Source: Natronococcus sp. A-GB7 (lineage in GTDB: Archaea > Halobacteriota > Halobacteria > Halobacteriales > Natrialbaceae). From it: a DNA stretch of 64,000 bases. Positions 14,094 through 20,188 of the stretch are shown here, one piece after another. The position numbers were made by a program, and so were the translations under genes. The stretch spans positions 62,001 through 126,000 of the forward strand of contig NZ_JARUKV010000006.1 in assembly GCF_029688865.1 (NCBI RefSeq), in the 5' to 3' direction. Below the pieces are notes generated by a model that worked only from the letters and a program-made list of their open reading frames with translations, had not been told where the DNA came from and did not search any database. Every line of letters begins with the position of its first letter. The first letter of the stretch is position 1.

Positions 14094-14341
14094 GCCTCGA
14101 GGAAACCGGATAGTAAACTGTATATGGCGATACAGAAATGGTGGCAGAACGCCGCAGAACTTCGGAGGATGGGTTTTGACAAACCACCAAATTAGTGACG
14201 TTTCTATATTCGGACATGCATGATTGGTATGAAATGTGACCGGTTAGTTCCAGTTTTAGATCTAAGACAGTTAGAATGTGATGTAGGTGAGTGAATGAAA
14301 GTGCAGGAAACTTATTACTGATAGAGTTATAACCATTACAT

Positions 14342-14560
14342 ATGAGTCAGAACAAATCTGACGGTGGGAAATTCATTGCTTCAATTCATCGTTCAATACT
14401 TGGTGCGCTACTTGCAATAGCCGGAATTGTAGGGCTTGCTGGGGTAATGGAAGCGGTTACCGGAGGGCATCTGTTGTTTGGTGTTGTTGGAATCGTAGTT
14501 GCTGGAATCGCAGTTTATTGGATCTATTACCTGTTTATGGAAGGTTTGCAAGAACGGTAA
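14342..14560 (+). CDS. Small two-helix membrane protein, unknown function
   Basis: The 72-residue protein begins MSQNKSDGGKFIASIHRSI and has two hydrophobic segments (about residues 18-35 and 42-62) with a short loop containing Glu and Gly residues. The ATG follows an AT-rich stretch suitable for a promoter. Codon use is AT-rich like the rest of the island. No family is recognised. Small membrane proteins of this kind are common in haloarchaeal viruses and plasmids, but that is only context. Confidence 0.55.
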   Translation: MSQNKSDGGKFIASIHRSILGALLAIAGIVGLAGVMEAVTGGHLLFGVVGIVVAGIAVYWIYYLFMEGLQER

Positions 14561-14644
14561 GACAGATTCGCTATCTACAGATGTGTATGGAACAGACAGC
14601 AACAGACCAGCAATGTTTATAAGTTATTGTTGGTAATAGTACAT

Positions 14645-14821
14645 ATGGAAGTTACGCGTAAAAATGTCCTCAAGGTATTTGGGCCAATATCTATACTAAC
14701 AGTCCTGATATTAGTGTATCTTACATCGCTTTCTTCTTGGTGGGTTCTCGGAATAACGGTCCTCGTTGCCATAATTATCCCTCAGTCGATAATTCGGTTT
14801 CATCCCAGAATTAATGTCTGA
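14645..14821 (+). CDS. Small membrane protein, unknown function
   Basis: A 58-residue protein starts at the ATG of MEVTRKNVLKVFG. Two hydrophobic stretches (about residues 12-28 and 31-46) are followed by a short basic tail. A TATA-like TTTATAAG lies about 30 bp before the ATG, which suits a leaderless transcript. A TTG 18 bp upstream is an alternative start. Nothing more specific can be said. It follows the 72-residue membrane protein in the same direction, and the two may be expressed independently. Confidence 0.45.
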   Translation: MEVTRKNVLKVFGPISILTVLILVYLTSLSSWWVLGITVLVAIIIPQSIIRFHPRINV

Positions 14822-14905
14822 GTTCCCACACATAACGGATCTCCCTCTACTGACTATTGAAACCTACTACAGAACTCTATGCTATCGACACTGACCAGCA
14901 CCTCA

Positions 14906-15640
14906 TCACAGCTTCTTGTATGTGAGATCTTTTGAAGAAACATATTCACGAATCAGTTCACCAAGTTCCCATGTACGATGTACGTCTGCTAAATTATGCT
15001 GAAGTATCGGAAGAAATTCTTCGCGTTTATAGCGTTCGACAGCACTCCCAGAGTCTTCGAACGGATCATACGGCTCGCCCTGATACCAGATGTGATCCAC
15101 ACTTTCGGAAGTGGTCTCTATCGGAACCTGATCAACTTCATTAAACAAGATGTCATGTGATCCGACAAGCGTGTTTATATCTGATCCGTTACCGTAGGCG
15201 GTGTGCTGCGTGTTGAGTCGCTTCTTGACTGGTTCAAAAATGTCTGCGAATTGGATGTTGTCGAACACCCAGTTGAGATCGTTCTTGATGCATCGGGTGC
15301 GTAGGAACGGAAGATCGAAGCCACCAGACCATGAGTCGGCGTTATAGGCAATAAGTCGGTTGTAGTTTCTGTCGAACTTCTCAAAAATGATTTCTTGTAC
15401 TGCCTTCAGTAGGTGCCATTCATTTTCTACTACGGTCACTGAGACCGGAACACCACCACTCACACTTTCAAGCCGTTGTTCGCTTTTCTGAGACGATAGT
15501 GTACTTCCATCAGTATTGATTACGAGTTCTGCTCGTCCTGTTGGAAGCCAGAAACCGGAGACCGTGATTTGATCAGACCACCCGAATCCTGTTGTTTCGA
15601 TGTCCCATGCGACGTGTGTTCGATCTATTTCTTGGATCAT
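14906..15640 (-). CDS. RNase H-fold 3'-5' exonuclease-like protein (DEDD type)
   Basis: From MIQEIDRTHVAWDIETTGFG the protein is about 244 residues. It carries three exonuclease motifs in order: ExoI DIETTGFG, ExoII around LIAYNADSWSGGFDLPFL, and ExoIII in HNLADVHRTWEL. These provide the acidic DEDD-type metal ligands of the DnaQ/PolB-exonuclease superfamily. No polymerase domain follows, so it is a stand-alone nuclease. An earlier ATG at 15784, overlapping the stop of the preceding gene, would add 48 residues that read through a repeat element; I regard that as less likely. It may take part in replication or repair of the island. Confidence 0.6.
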   Translation of the reverse strand: MIQEIDRTHVAWDIETTGFGWSDQITVSGFWLPTGRAELVINTDGSTLSSQKSEQRLESVSGGVPVSVTVVENEWHLLKAVQEIIFEKFDRNYNRLIAYNADSWSGGFDLPFLRTRCIKNDLNWVFDNIQFADIFEPVKKRLNTQHTAYGNGSDINTLVGSHDILFNEVDQVPIETTSESVDHIWYQGEPYDPFEDSGSAVERYKREEFLPILQHNLADVHRTWELGELIREYVSSKDLTYKKL

Positions 15641-15710
15641 CGCACCTGTAGCATCAGGAAGAGATAACAAAACGAACGGGGCTGAACTTCCGGAAGTCCG
15701 TGAGATGATT

Positions 15711-15745
15711 CTATCAGTAGTTGGTAGTACGGTTTCTTTATTCAG
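15711..15745 (-). repeat. 35-bp island repeat, copy 1
   Basis: On the minus strand this reads as an AATAAAGAAA half followed by CGTACTACCAACTACT. Copies 2, 3 and 4 match it at most positions. It lies 36 bp beyond the stop of the small membrane gene on this strand and forms an inverted pair with copy 2. Confidence 0.75.
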
Positions 15746-15780
15746 AACTTTGCCTGAAGCCCACGTTACGCACAGGGGAC

Positions 15781-15996
15781 TCATTGACGACGGGTGTAGA
15801 TGAATTGTGAAATAATGAACACAAGCGCGGCAGAAAAGAAGATTCCCATTGTCTCAATTGCCAACTCACCAAGAGCCCAGTACTGATACGAGAGAACAAT
15901 AAAGCCAGCAACCAGAGCCGCTGTGAACCCGTTTCTGTAGCTCCTCGCTTTATTATCATCTAAGTCTGAATCTAAAACGATTTCTGCAATTCCCAT
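15781..15996 (-). CDS. Small membrane protein inside inverted-repeat pair A
   Basis: The 71-residue protein has an acidic N-terminus (MGIAEIVLDSDLDDNKARS) and two hydrophobic helices. The first ends in an SYQYWALGEL segment. The motif resembles the FQYWQSN segment of the 61-residue protein at 17328-17513, which lies between the second pair of repeats. The two may therefore be distant paralogs carried in equivalent cassettes. The stop overlaps a possible upstream start of the exonuclease gene by four bases. Function is unknown; the repeat arrangement suggests it belongs to a unit with orc1/cdc6. Confidence 0.5.
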   Translation of the reverse strand: MGIAEIVLDSDLDDNKARSYRNGFTAALVAGFIVLSYQYWALGELAIETMGIFFSAALVFIISQFIYTRRQ

Positions 15997-16057
15997 AGTG
16001 TATATGTAATCATAACAACTGGATCACTAATAGGTTTCTGCCGTTCAGTACGCATAC

Positions 16058-16131
16058 CTACGTAACGAATCGACCAATTCAGATTCACGGCTCAGATTGA
16101 ATAAAGAAGCCGTACTACCAACTACTGCTAG
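16058..16131 (+). repeat. Island repeat, copy 2 (core 16098-16131) with extended flank
   Basis: The core reads TGAATAAAGAAGCCGTACTA then CCAACTACTGCTAG and is inverted relative to copy 1. About 40 bp on its left (from CGTAACGAATCGACC to CACGGCTCAG) also match the left flank of copy 4. The extended direct repeat is therefore about 74 bp. It lies between the end of orc1/cdc6 and the start of the small membrane gene. Confidence 0.75.
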
Positions 16132-16138
16132 GTACGGG

Positions 16139-17146
16139 CTATGAAGAATGAGTATTGTATGTACGCCCCCGGTTTTCGCCGTTAGCGACAACAAGGTTGT
16201 AGTGCTGCATCTTCTGTAGATAGTACCGCATCATTCGCTTTGTCTTCGGCTCATCAATCCGATTTTGGTAGACCTCATACAGACGGCCAGCCGAAGTCTC
16301 TCCTTCCTCAGTTAGAACATCATAGAGTATCCGTTGATCCTCTGTAAGTTTCTCTACGTTTTTCTGCTTGATTTCCGTTTTCGCTTCCGGTACTGCATCA
16401 TCAATATACTCGTCTGAAATACCGTTCTCATTGTTTTGTGAAGCCAGTCGTGCAGCTTTTCGAAGCACTCCTATTGCAACACGAGCATCGCCTTTAGACG
16501 CGACAGCAATGCGCTCTAACTGATCAGGAATAACAGCATCTGGCTCCAACCCCCAGTGTACCCTGTCTTCGAGTATGGATACGATCTCCCCACTCCGATA
16601 CGGTTTGTAATGGATGCGTGTTATCGTCTGCAGACGGCTTTTGAGACGATTATCTAGCCGGGAGAACAGATCCTCCTCTTGATTCGCTATGAGAACCATT
16701 TCGACGTTTGGTGTGCGGTATATGTTGTAAAGTACGTCGGTGGTTTCGAGTTGATCTGCTTCATCAAGAACGACTACGTAGGGTGGGCCGTCGTAGTTGT
16801 GTAGTCGGTCACGGAGTTTGTCGGTGGGTGTGGATTGACGGTGGATGTCGAGTGTTTGGTCAATGCCTTCAAGGATGCGGTAGAGGGTCTGGAACTGCGT
16901 ATGGTCTTTCCAGCAGTTGACGTATTGTGTGTTGAGATCGATTACGTTTTCGTGGAGTTGTTTGAGGATGTACTGTGTAGTGCAGGTTTTTCCGACGCCT
17001 GGGGGTCCGTGTAGGAGGGTGGTTTCTCCTGGTTCGCCGTTGGTGAGTGGTTTGAGAGCGGCGGAGAGTGTAGTGAGTTCGTTATCGCGGTGAACGAGGT
17101 CTTTGGGTACGAATTCGGCTTGGAGGACTCGCGCGTCTGTTATCAT
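16139..17146 (-). CDS. Orc1/Cdc6 family replication initiator (AAA+ ATPase)
   Basis: The 335-residue protein starts MITDARVLQAEFVPKDLVHR, the usual N-terminal block of archaeal Cdc6 proteins. It has Walker A LLHGPPGVGKT around residue 45, Walker B YVVVLDEADQL around 130, and a sensor-2-like segment with GDARVAIGVLRKA near 230. The C-terminal 80 residues look like the winged-helix domain that binds origin DNA. It is shorter than typical chromosomal haloarchaeal Orc proteins (about 400 residues), as expected for plasmid- or virus-type members. It is AT-rich in composition. Four copies of a 35-bp repeat flank it, so a local replication origin is plausible. Confidence 0.88.
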   Translation of the reverse strand: MITDARVLQAEFVPKDLVHRDNELTTLSAALKPLTNGEPGETTLLHGPPGVGKTCTTQYILKQLHENVIDLNTQYVNCWKDHTQFQTLYRILEGIDQTLDIHRQSTPTDKLRDRLHNYDGPPYVVVLDEADQLETTDVLYNIYRTPNVEMVLIANQEEDLFSRLDNRLKSRLQTITRIHYKPYRSGEIVSILEDRVHWGLEPDAVIPDQLERIAVASKGDARVAIGVLRKAARLASQNNENGISDEYIDDAVPEAKTEIKQKNVEKLTEDQRILYDVLTEEGETSAGRLYEVYQNRIDEPKTKRMMRYYLQKMQHYNLVVANGENRGRTYNTHSS

Positions 17147-17208
17147 AACGCATACTTCAACAGCATCCTAAATAAGTGGAAGTGGTGAATTTCCGCTTTT
17201 CCGATTTA

Positions 17209-17244
17209 CTGGTTAGTAGTTAGTAGTGCAGTTTCTTTATTCAG
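17209..17244 (-). repeat. 36-bp island repeat, copy 3
   Basis: On the minus strand it reads CTGAATAAAGAAACTGCACT followed by ACTAACTACTAACCAG and matches copies 1, 2 and 4 at most positions. It sits 62 bp upstream of the orc1/cdc6 start and 83 bp upstream of the small membrane gene on the plus strand, so it lies in the shared divergent promoter region. It is inverted relative to copy 4. Confidence 0.7.
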
Positions 17245-17327
17245 AATTGTGTGTGAAACTCCCGATCAGTATAGGTCAGGGAAATAAAGAGCATAAGAAT
17301 TAAACTCTTTGACAGAATACGACGCCT

Positions 17328-17513
17328 ATGAACCAGACTACGGAACGTCTTGAATATCACATCAAGGGTGCATTCATAGTCCTGCTCGTCCTCGCGGCAT
17401 TCCAGTACTGGCAGAGCAACCTCGATCTCGGATTCCTAGTTGTAGTGGCAGCTGGTTACGTTGTTCTCAGGATGGCGTTTGATATTATCCAGGAACGATA
17501 CATAAACGCCTGA
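17328..17513 (+). CDS. Small membrane protein inside inverted-repeat pair B
   Basis: The 61-residue protein begins MNQTTERLEYHIKGAFIVL. Two hydrophobic helices occupy about residues 14-25 and 32-48, separated by QYWQSNLD. It resembles the 71-residue protein of repeat pair A in length, topology and the QYW motif at the end of helix 1. It is divergent from orc1/cdc6, with 181 bp of AT-rich DNA between them. Function is unknown. The pairing with orc1/cdc6 and the repeats is the most informative context. Confidence 0.5.
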   Translation: MNQTTERLEYHIKGAFIVLLVLAAFQYWQSNLDLGFLVVVAAGYVVLRMAFDIIQERYINA

Positions 17514-17535
17514 ACGCTGTTCCCTTCGCACTCTA

Positions 17536-17610
17536 TACATAACGTATCGACAATTCAGATTCACGGCCCAGACCAAATAAAGAAATTGTACTACCAACTA
17601 CTACTGACAG
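17536..17610 (+). repeat. Island repeat, copy 4 (core 17574-17610) with extended flank
   Basis: The core reads CAAATAAAGAAATTGTACTA then CCAACTACTACTGACAG. The 38 bp to its left (ATAACGTATCGAC to CACGGCCCAG) match the flank of copy 2 with few differences. It is inverted relative to copy 3 and ends at the stop codon of the winged-helix gene. Confidence 0.75.
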
Positions 17611-18075
17611 TCATTCATCCTTGTCTACTCTTCCTTGTTCTTCCTTTGCAGGGTCCGTAGTGGTGTACAGCGTAGGTGCAATCGGAATAAATTCATCATC
17701 CGCATATTTTTTGTCCATTTCTTCATAACCATCTACAATAGTGTCTAACACATTATCACGCGCATCATCGAATCCTTTACGCGCATCTCTTAATTCGTAA
17801 TGATAGTGAACTAAGCCAATATGCTCCATATTCATCAATAAATACCTGCCCCTGTTCGTCAAAATATACGCATGTGATTTTCCCTTCTCTCCATCAACTA
17901 CTTCAGTGTCAACTAGTGACAAATATTCTGCCCGTTTCAACCTTTTAGTTAATGTTCCTTGACTAATGTCGAGTGCATCATCTAATTCGTTGAAACGAGA
18001 CCCATTATATCCCATCTCACACACCATTCGTATTGACCCTTTTTTCCACAGAAACCCTCTAACATCTCCTGACAT
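17611..18075 (-). CDS. Winged-helix transcriptional regulator
   Basis: In this 154-residue protein, residues 5-85 form a winged-helix domain: a helix with SRFNELDDAL, a recognition helix ISQGTLTKRLKRAEYLSLV, and a wing containing VDGEKGKSHAYILTNRGRYL. The pattern is that of MarR/HxlR/PadR-like archaeal regulators. The C-terminal 60 residues are charged and probably helical. Composition is AT-rich, as in the rest of the island. It may control genes of the island. It lies divergently from the transposase gene, with about 150 bp between them. Confidence 0.7.
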   Translation of the reverse strand: MSGDVRGFLWKKGSIRMVCEMGYNGSRFNELDDALDISQGTLTKRLKRAEYLSLVDTEVVDGEKGKSHAYILTNRGRYLLMNMEHIGLVHYHYELRDARKGFDDARDNVLDTIVDGYEEMDKKYADDEFIPIAPTLYTTTDPAKEEQGRVDKDE

Positions 18076-18223
18076 TAATCTCTAATTCATATTGCAACAT
18101 ATTAAATTCTACAGTACACTCTAATTTAGCGCACGCTCTCACCTTTTTGATTAAATACACCCATCAACTACGCCGATTACCGGAAATCGGAAACTTCGCA
18201 CTTAAATCTTAGTTTAAAACCAG

Positions 18224-19930
18224 ATGACATCTACCATGAAACCATCAAACCACGATTCTCTCCTTGACGATCTAGCTGAGCAGGCAGAAGAGCGCTGCCA
18301 AGTCCGCGACCATATATCAAAAGTAATTGCTGATCTCGAATTTTCAGACGAAATGTTCACAGACCAGCACGATGGGTCTGCTTTCTACGATTTTGAGGGA
18401 ATGGTACGTATATTCCTTTACAAAGAAGTTCGCGGCCTCAGCCAACGAGAAACTGCACGACACTTGGAGCAATGGCCACACATACTGATGAAATTCGGGC
18501 TGGACCGTTCTCCAAGACAAGCAACATTGTCACATACGCGCCAAAATCGGTTTTCCTTCACTGATTGGCTATTCCTGCGTGATGCTGCATCTCAAATCCA
18601 AGAAATCGCGGAAGAACACGATCTGATTCATGTTCCAAACGACTCTCCACCAATTTCACCGGACGAAATTCAGGACGGTGGGCTAACTGAGAAAGAAATT
18701 CGACGGGCCACGCAACTCGCCCGGAAACACGTATTCAAACCGTTCAGCACAGGACGTGCTGAGAACGCAAAATACGACGATAACATTTTCTGGGAGATGC
18801 AGGCCTACTTGTCGATGGTTAGATGTGGGACTGCACAAGGCGGTCGGCGCTTTGCTCGAATGAGCAAACGAAGCGAGACACCACACGGGGACACACACGA
18901 AAGAACAATAAAGAAAATTGGTGCTCCTAATCCCCAAACCAGTCTCAAAGAATGGAGTGATGGATCAGACACGGTGAATTGGAAACGGACTCGGAAACAG
19001 TTACTTGATCCGTTCAATGACGCTATTGAACATCTCTTAGAAGAATCCACACTCAAAAACGATATTCGGGAACCAGTTAACGTCGCCATTGACATTACAC
19101 CATGGCAGTTCTATCCCTCCCCATGGAAGGACAGAGACCGGAATCTTCCAAAAGAAGACTATCCAGAAATGGTTGCAGGGTTGAAAGATAGGGGTGTTCG
19201 TGGATATGAGTTTGCGACGTTAACTGTCGTAGGAGTAAACACCCCGATTATTCTTGCTGTTGAACCAGTTAAACGTCGCTCTGCATGGGAAAATGATGGG
19301 GTTGGATCAACACCAGTAGCGGATGTAGTAGAGCGGCTTCTGAATAAGGCGCATCAGTATGTTGAGATCAACAAGGTGATGGCTGACCGGGAGTTTGACA
19401 CCCATCGTGTTCGAGATATTGTTGACCGAAAGGGGATGACCTACTTGATTCCGAAGCGGTTCAGTGCCTCGAAGGATTTTGAGAACGCTGAAAAGGTCGA
19501 GCAACATCCTCACGCAGATGTGGCAGTCGAGCAAGATGTTTCGCTTTCAGTTGATGATAGAACACATGAAGTAAATTTCATGTATGTCCCGTCAAAATCG
19601 GGTGAGGGTTCTGCACTGTTCACAACAAATGCAGATGTAACTCCGGATCGGGCACAAGGTTTGGTGGCTCAGTACCGGGACCGATGGATGATTGAGAACG
19701 AGTACAAGTCGATCAAAGCGGATTTCCTGCCGGTCACCTGCTCGAAGGACTACCGCATGCGGATGTTCTATTTTATTGCGGCTACCCTGATGTACAATCT
19801 GTGGCGGTTGACGAATCTTGTTCTTCGGGACTTGGTGGATGTGGATCTTGGTGAATCTCCACCAATAACAGCAGGAGAATTCGTGGAGTTGTTGGCGGTT
19901 TTCGTTGAGCCGCAGACAGAATACGGGTAA
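18224..19930 (+). CDS. IS4-type DDE transposase
   Basis: The 568-residue protein has the acidic residues of a DDE transposase: D in VNVAIDITPW (about residue 290), D in KVMADREFDTH (about 390), and E in YRDRWMIENEYKSIK (about 490). The last segment fits the IS4 signature Y-x2-R-x3-E-x6-K exactly. The N-terminal 120 residues contain a helical region with GLSQRETARHL, probably the DNA-binding part. At 568 residues it is longer than many IS4 members, but large haloarchaeal members exist. The frame is intact. I could not identify convincing terminal inverted repeats or a target-site duplication. Confidence 0.88.
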   Translation: MTSTMKPSNHDSLLDDLAEQAEERCQVRDHISKVIADLEFSDEMFTDQHDGSAFYDFEGMVRIFLYKEVRGLSQRETARHLEQWPHILMKFGLDRSPRQATLSHTRQNRFSFTDWLFLRDAASQIQEIAEEHDLIHVPNDSPPISPDEIQDGGLTEKEIRRATQLARKHVFKPFSTGRAENAKYDDNIFWEMQAYLSMVRCGTAQGGRRFARMSKRSETPHGDTHERTIKKIGAPNPQTSLKEWSDGSDTVNWKRTRKQLLDPFNDAIEHLLEESTLKNDIREPVNVAIDITPWQFYPSPWKDRDRNLPKEDYPEMVAGLKDRGVRGYEFATLTVVGVNTPIILAVEPVKRRSAWENDGVGSTPVADVVERLLNKAHQYVEINKVMADREFDTHRVRDIVDRKGMTYLIPKRFSASKDFENAEKVEQHPHADVAVEQDVSLSVDDRTHEVNFMYVPSKSGEGSALFTTNADVTPDRAQGLVAQYRDRWMIENEYKSIKADFLPVTCSKDYRMRMFYFIAATLMYNLWRLTNLVLRDLVDVDLGESPPITAGEFVELLAVFVEPQTEYG

Positions 19931-20188
19931 CTGACTGTTGTTATCGTATTCGCCTTTTGAGTAGTTGCATCGCTCGTTAGCGCTTCTTATTTTTATCAAT
20001 AACTAACCGTATTTTATATTAGTAAATAATTTTAAATCCGTATCTTCTCTGACCTGATTTCTCAGATAAACAGAATTGGTCAGCGGACCGCTTTTCGTTT
20101 GTCAACCGGTCAAACTCCGAAGTTGTGACGCCGACTCCTGTGGGGCGATCCCGGAGCACCCCGGCTCGAGGTAATCCTCGGCTTCGCG
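19931..20188. other. Non-coding right end of the island
   Basis: The first part is very AT-rich (for example TATTAGTAAATAATTTTAAAT near 20020-20035). GC content rises sharply from about 20090. The transposon end and the island boundary should lie here. I see no gene, and no clear inverted repeat matching the left side of the transposase. Confidence 0.4.

Follow-up and report, generated by a model that had tools for sequence, protein, structure and literature searches.

Several described systems bear on the arrangement reported here. Mobile insertion cassettes, exemplified by those of qnrD and qnrS2 (PMC3913671; PMC5444012), and MITEs, which have been described from haloarchaea together with the ORF-bearing ISH2 (PMC3119063), depend on a transposase supplied in trans. 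The ISH3 family comprises elements of 1.2-1.5 kb with CRGT ends and target duplications of 4-5 bp (PMC2266710). HRAMP is an array-less CRISPR derivative of haloarchaea, in whose accessible descriptions nucleases (HNH, PD-(D/E)xK) are named and a transposon is not (PMC8730458; PMC12669027), and CRISPR-associated transposons (CAST) bring Cas effector homologues, with no adaptation module, onto a transposon with defined ends (PMC12669027). Lastly, haloarchaeal orc/cdc6 origins, whose recognition boxes are often inverted repeats adjoining the orc/cdc6 gene, have been proposed to move with transposases, integrases or transposases being located close to 42 of 102 (PMC3528665).

The locus considered here lies in a 64,000-nucleotide stretch of Natronococcus sp. 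A-GB7 (contig NZ_JARUKV010000006.1, positions 62,001 to 126,000), hereafter the window, and centers on an orc1/cdc6 gene flanked by four repeats (Table 1). Two non-autonomous cassettes without a transposase, i.e., mobile insertion cassettes, have these repeats as their terminal inverted repeats, and both are nested within a transposon of 5,973 bp that constitutes the cdc6 locus. Like mobile insertion cassettes and MITEs, such units hold one or more passenger genes or none between inverted repeats, lack a transposase, and are flanked by a target duplication, and they presumably share the dependence on a transposase in trans; unlike them, a single haloarchaeal family of ends, spread over many genera, encloses cargos that number in the dozens and are unrelated, and the element with which these ends are shared is a transposon bearing HRAMP and not a plain IS. 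The locus also resembles the transposase-linked haloarchaeal origins in that orc/cdc6 stands beside a transposase (PMC3528665), but the limits of the moved unit are here defined, by ends and a duplication as well as by an empty site and an insertion in the opposite orientation.

Table 1. Features of the orc1/cdc6 locus, with positions numbered from the first nucleotide of the window.
Feature	Position	Strand	Description
Host element	14155..20127		5,973-bp transposon; holds exonuclease-like, cdc6, HxlR-like, and transposase genes and both cassettes
Left end of host element	14155..14167	+	CAGAACTTCGGAG
Exonuclease-like gene	14906..15643	-	Weak RNase_H_2 match, below cut-off
Cassette 1	15715..16127		413 bp, non-autonomous, inverted ends; between cdc6 and exonuclease-like gene
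Left end, cassette 1 (copy 1)	15715..15744	-	30 bp; 27-bp core AATAAAGAANNNGTACTACCAACTACT at 15716-15742(-); target-side 4 bp CTAT at 15711-15714
Cassette 1 cargo ORF	15781..15996	-	71-aa small membrane-type protein
Right end, cassette 1 (copy 2)	16098..16127	+	30 bp; core at 16100-16126(+); target-side 4 bp CTAG at 16128-16131
Orc1/Cdc6-family gene	16139..17146	-	335 aa; TIGR02928 above cut-off, AAA_22, Cdc6_lid
Candidate Cdc6 box	17180..17205	+	AAGTGGTGAATTTCCGCTTTTCCGAT; TTCC-spacer-TTCC upstream of cdc6
Cassette 2	17214..17603		390 bp; between cdc6 and HxlR-like gene
Left end, cassette 2 (copy 3)	17214..17243	-	30 bp; core at 17215-17241(-)
Cassette 2 cargo ORF	17328..17513	+	61-aa small membrane-type protein
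Right end, cassette 2 (copy 4)	17574..17603	+	30 bp; core at 17576-17602(+)
HxlR-like winged-helix gene	17611..18075	-	Pfam HxlR 6.5e-08
ISH3-like DDE transposase	18224..19930	+	568 aa; Pfam DDE_Tnp_1
Right end of host element	20115..20127	-	CTCCGAAGTTGTG

The first-pass annotation of this DNA had reported four repeat copies in two inverted pairs, and all four are present: copies 1 to 4 match 24/24, 24/24, 22/24, and 24/24 of the fixed core positions, and they score 54-69 on a weight matrix of the ends (68.8 and 67.6 for cassette 1, 58.0 and 54.2 for cassette 2), while no score of at least 12 was obtained when 884 kb of reversed sequence was scanned with the same matrix, so that chance is no plausible source of the repeats. 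Complementarity amounts to 94% over 34 nt for pair 1/2 and 74% over 47 nt for pair 3/4, and in both pairs AGTAGT lies outermost and AATAAAG innermost; the terminal inverted repeat of the two cassettes reads CAGTAGTTGGTAGTACGGTTTCTTTATTCA. The two units that these pairs had been said to bound are thus upheld, with the exact termini placed a few bases inside the limits first drawn; the shared inner flanks, likewise noted at first pass, are borne out by identities of 85% over 55 nt (copies 2 and 4) and 75% over 61 nt (copies 1 and 3). The four bases on either side of cassette 1 agree at three of four positions (CTAT/CTAG), whereas cassette 2 has decayed termini (CAG to TAG) and no target duplication at its flanks; both cassettes are therefore old or altered.

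In a matrix built from 128 ends, conservation stops sharply at CTACTG and is followed in the flank by N-TA-N, which defines ends of the form 5'-CAGTAG...CTACTG-3' and a target of 4 bp, NTAN. At a tolerance of 3 mismatches, the 27-bp core is found in 82 of 125 Natrialbaceae genomes, in hundreds of copies, and a reversed control pattern has 0 matches in the same 125 genomes; an exact scan of genome contigs located the core in Haloferax, Haloarcula, Halorussus, Haloquadratum, Halostella, and others as well. Many matches are paired in the geometry of the window units, and matched ends bound units of 0.17-2.3 kb whose cargo is unrelated and read in either direction, including HTH regulators, a response regulator, a PAP2-like protein, a racemase-like enzyme, lipoproteins, VapBC-type pairs, and small membrane proteins (names taken from translations read by eye, not from library matches). 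The G+C content averages 48% inside the cassettes and 58% outside. The window units and most others carry an ORF and so depart from the short, non-coding form of a MITE. Non-coding versions of 110 bp that do fit that form occur in Haloarcula with exact NTAN duplications (L114 540-649, TTAT; L132 2890-2999, ATAA). Other variants include cargo that by eye resembles VapBC-type toxin-antitoxin pairs (L108 5260-6188; L127 511-1332) and ends doubled in tandem on one side, about 122 bp apart (L069 10268-10953; L064 895-1651; L070 5811-5987). A viral source for the repeats was considered and rejected, given that viral contigs held no exact match and phage records no end match. No description of the cassette family, or of its link to HRAMP transposons, was found among open-licence papers.

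Target duplications and empty sites identify these units as insertions. Among 42 non-redundant cassettes, the 4-bp NTAN flanks are identical in 23 and match at three or more positions in 33; random re-pairing of the flanks (2,000 trials) gave a mean of 2.4 identical pairs and a maximum of 9. In the window's own genome, a cassette (L069 10272-10949) splits a transposase gene and is flanked by a CTAC duplication, and its rejoined flanks give a gapless 599-nt alignment, 89% identical, with the sibling genome G006, where the transposase gene is intact. For the window module, a comparable state exists in another genus (G077), where transposase, HxlR, cdc6, and exonuclease genes stand in the same order without either cassette; the intergenic gaps measure 84 and 67 bp in that genome versus 464 and 495 bp in the window, an excess close to the two cassettes. 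An empty-site comparison of L074 within its own genus met flanks too diverged at the junction, and a clean empty site for cassette 1 was not found in G002, in which the interval is replaced. The suggestion made at first pass that the repeats are the ends of a small mobile cassette is accordingly sustained across many genomes by varied cargo, NTAN duplications, and empty sites, as well as by the recovery of the 61-aa gene in a cassette elsewhere. It is very probable that non-autonomous cassettes, presumably moved in trans, inserted beside an orc1/cdc6 gene that itself lies inside the 5.97-kb transposon.

The same observations bear on the reading that the repeats are fixed regulatory elements, for instance paired promoters or terminators that insulate small genes and are themselves immobile. 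Each window unit does enclose a single small ORF, and by eye a loose likeness to an archaeal TATA region can be made out in the inner part TTTCTTTATTC; nevertheless, the cargo is unrelated between units and read either way, two Haloarcula units measure only 110 bp, homologues of both cargo genes occur without repeats, and neither exact duplications nor a gene-splitting insertion with an empty site is expected of regulatory elements. This reading merits very little credence, although the repeats could possibly affect transcription as a side effect.

At first pass the repeats had alternatively been proposed as origin-recognition elements for the Orc1/Cdc6; in such a reading they would be boxes bound by the enclosed protein, and the region an origin built on them. 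The proposed identity of the initiator is secure, as the central gene is a true orc1/cdc6 (TIGR02928, 196.7 bits against a cut-off of 181.3), and such a gene flanked by repeats in inverted pairs is the kind of arrangement in which inverted-repeat boxes commonly occur beside orc/cdc6 in haloarchaea (PMC3528665). The distribution of the repeat nonetheless opposes this role. Whether it always flanks a cdc6-like gene had been posed as a check, and it does not: hundreds of copies lie away from cdc6, nearly all loci in the 82 of 125 genomes being cdc6-free, and no cdc6 was seen in the cassette units examined. Conversely, about 30 related cdc6 loci lack the repeat, that of G077 among them, the exceptions being the window locus and decayed traces in G002 and G011. 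No haloarchaeal G-string (a run of at least 4 G or C) was present in the cdc6 flanks examined, and exact target duplications are not expected of origin boxes. A different box, moreover, is conserved upstream of the window's Cdc6 subfamily: a TTCC-spacer-TTCC motif, unrelated to the repeats, lies about 48-59 nt upstream of the start codon and recurs in 24 of 33 relatives versus 0.84 in shuffles. Judging by this conservation, Cdc6 probably binds the box at 17180-17205. Origin function can be explained without the 35-bp repeats, the cassettes play no evident role in what Cdc6 does, and the origin-box role was rejected, with virtually no likelihood left to it.

The cargo of the two window cassettes agrees with what the first-pass annotation had read, namely one protein of 61-71 residues with a QYW motif per unit, directed away from the initiator gene; both are hydrophobic, their two-helix character is a judgment made by eye, and neither has a significant match in Pfam or NCBIfam. 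A tiny membrane-protein gene is no fixed attribute of such units, being one kind of cargo among many. Homologues of the 71-aa protein (64-82% identity) occur in five other genomes and were found only outside cassettes. The 61-aa gene has an 89% identical copy within a complete cassette at a different locus of G078 (L277), with TTAT on both sides and no cdc6 detected, and it also occurs twice without any ends in a sibling species. Because homologues of both genes exist without ends, the cargo looks like ordinary genes trapped between two ends. In G002, the counterpart of cassette 2 retains recognizable ends and inner flanks around a different middle, which suggests that cassette contents may be exchanged between conserved ends. 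The position of cassette 1 is occupied in that genome by unrelated DNA of about 460 bp (L010 1047-1508), holding a different 76-aa membrane-type ORF without recognizable ends. Two further tiny membrane-type ORFs adjoin the exonuclease-like gene in the host element (14342-14560 and 14627-14821), and no cassette ends are recognizable around them. Taken across the family, the cassettes constitute a widespread route by which single haloarchaeal genes, e.g., regulators, toxin-antitoxin-like pairs, small membrane proteins, and enzymes, are packaged and moved between near-identical ends.

The element into which the cassettes were inserted has its own boundaries. Its ends read CA(G/C)AACTTCGGAG and are flanked by an ACGCCG duplication (14149-14154 and 20128-20133); the whole of 14155-20127 lies in the opposite orientation in the sibling species G002 between collinear flanks, and in a further sibling species, G004, the element is absent and the rejoined site forms one contiguous alignment at 82% identity. 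The inversion, the duplication, and the empty site together establish the Cdc6 gene as part of a 5,973-bp transposon. In G002 the element sits at the same target, its duplicated bases being offset by one or two, and the two states could reflect either two insertions at a preferred site or a single insertion that later inverted. The host element could represent an origin or initiator moved by a transposon (cf. PMC3528665) or, alternatively, an AAA+ protein serving transposition; in either case it offers a delimited example of an orc1/cdc6-carrying transposon, a kind of element that had earlier been proposed for haloarchaeal origins on the sole ground of nearby transposases. The association of Cdc6, HxlR, and transposase genes recurs in G011, G077, and G044, the HxlR-like gene is kept beside the transposase in G090 and G145 as well as in those three, and in G077 the exonuclease-like gene is placed with respect to cdc6 as it is in the window; inverted-repeat alignment revealed no ends for the G077 or G011 version of the Cdc6 element. 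The window transposase (NCBIfam ISH3, 9.9e-21, 74 bits, below cut-off) was rejected as the owner of the repeats, since about 30 of its relatives lack these ends and it has an end pair of its own. Three HxlR-transposase gene pairs have the right end of a cassette immediately next to them (L069 5276-6003; L145 698-1501; window 17574-18224), and in G077 a gene that by eye resembles a tyrosine recombinase stands just past the transposase of the Cdc6 module (L225 7059-8201).

A candidate for the enzyme that moves the cassettes emerges from loci in which an ISH3-like transposase gene ends 45-90 nt inside a cassette-type end. Relatives of this end-linked transposase occur in 12 of 392 Halobacteriales genomes, mostly in elements of 6-7 kb with matching ends on both sides (L195-L202); the 4-bp flanks are identical in L196 (ATAA), L197 (TTAC), L198 (ATAC), L199 (ATAA), L201 (GTAA), and L202 (GTAA), and differ in L195. 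Like the ISH3 family, these elements have an archaeal DDE transposase, CAGT ends, and 4-bp duplications, but they are far longer at 6-7 kb, carry extra genes, and encode transposases of 566-620 aa for which ISH3 is the best NCBIfam model while remaining below its cut-off (128 bits versus 225). Cas5/Cas7-like genes lie inside 6-7 kb transposons at L195-L203 and L205. Most of these transposons carry three conserved genes, encoding a Cmr3/Cas5-like protein, an unknown 246-aa protein, and a Csm3/Cas7-like protein, which public annotation lists as hypothetical proteins beside an unnamed transposase. As predicted proteins, the three match the published outline of HRAMP, although the library matches are weak (PADLOC Cmr3 1.5e-06 and Csm3 8.2e-06; Pfam RAMPs 0.0028, below cut-off). 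A search with the Cas5-like protein found matches in 103 of 392 genomes, and in 23 of 30 fetched loci the matrix placed an end within about 110 nt behind the Cas5-like gene, two more being recognized by eye. Adjacent Cas5-like and Cas7-like proteins with a conserved unknown protein would be a feature in common with HRAMP in haloarchaea; what sets these loci apart from its accessible descriptions is that the genes are bounded by transposon ends and accompanied by a DDE transposase and duplications of the target. They likewise resemble CAST (PMC12669027) in the presence of putative Cas effector homologues without an adaptation module on a transposon with defined ends, but an ISH3-like transposase takes the place of Tn7/Mu-type genes, and inspection of the listed ORFs by eye revealed no Tn7-type gene. 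The HRAMP transposons and the cassettes are bridged directly by L140, a deletion derivative in which the left and right edges of an HRAMP-type transposon surround other cargo, with TTAC on both sides.

The mover of the cassettes would thus be an ISH3-like DDE transposase that acts in trans and recognizes their ends, and the transposase of the HRAMP transposons, which have the same ends and the same 4-bp duplications, is the best candidate for this role. The window's genome yielded no match for this transposase or for its Cas5-like gene, and the transposase was found in only 12 of 392 genomes, so that the cassettes may have some other enzyme as their mover. The cassettes would then be real and their mover unrelated to HRAMP transposons, for example an unsampled simple IS or a transposase since lost. 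The cassettes (82 of 125 genomes) are indeed far commoner than the HRAMP-type transposase, of which G000 has no copy, and cassette ends usually both finish in CTACTG, whereas one HRAMP end finishes in CAACTG. Against a separate mover stand the absence of any other transposase within a matching end pair, save an apparently nested IS5-like gene in L080, and the near identity of the transposase-side end of HRAMP elements to the cassette end, the CAGTTTCAGG block included; such a mover is unlikely, though well short of negligible. With mobilization by the HRAMP-transposon transposase as the preferred reading, the location of HRAMP genes in transposons with matching ends and duplications makes the choice between a defence system and a transposition module directly testable. 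It is conceivable, though rather improbable, that HRAMP is a working part of the transposon, wherein a Cas5/Cas7-like complex would act as a guide, aiding the ISH3-like transposase in target choice, and the same machinery would spread the cassettes; if true, such HRAMP-aided targeting would amount to an archaeal counterpart of CRISPR-associated transposons with an independent origin. In a related transposon (L204 4354-9278), bounded by ends of the kind described and flanked on either side by TTAT, the place of HRAMP is taken by a metallophosphoesterase-like gene together with two unknown genes.
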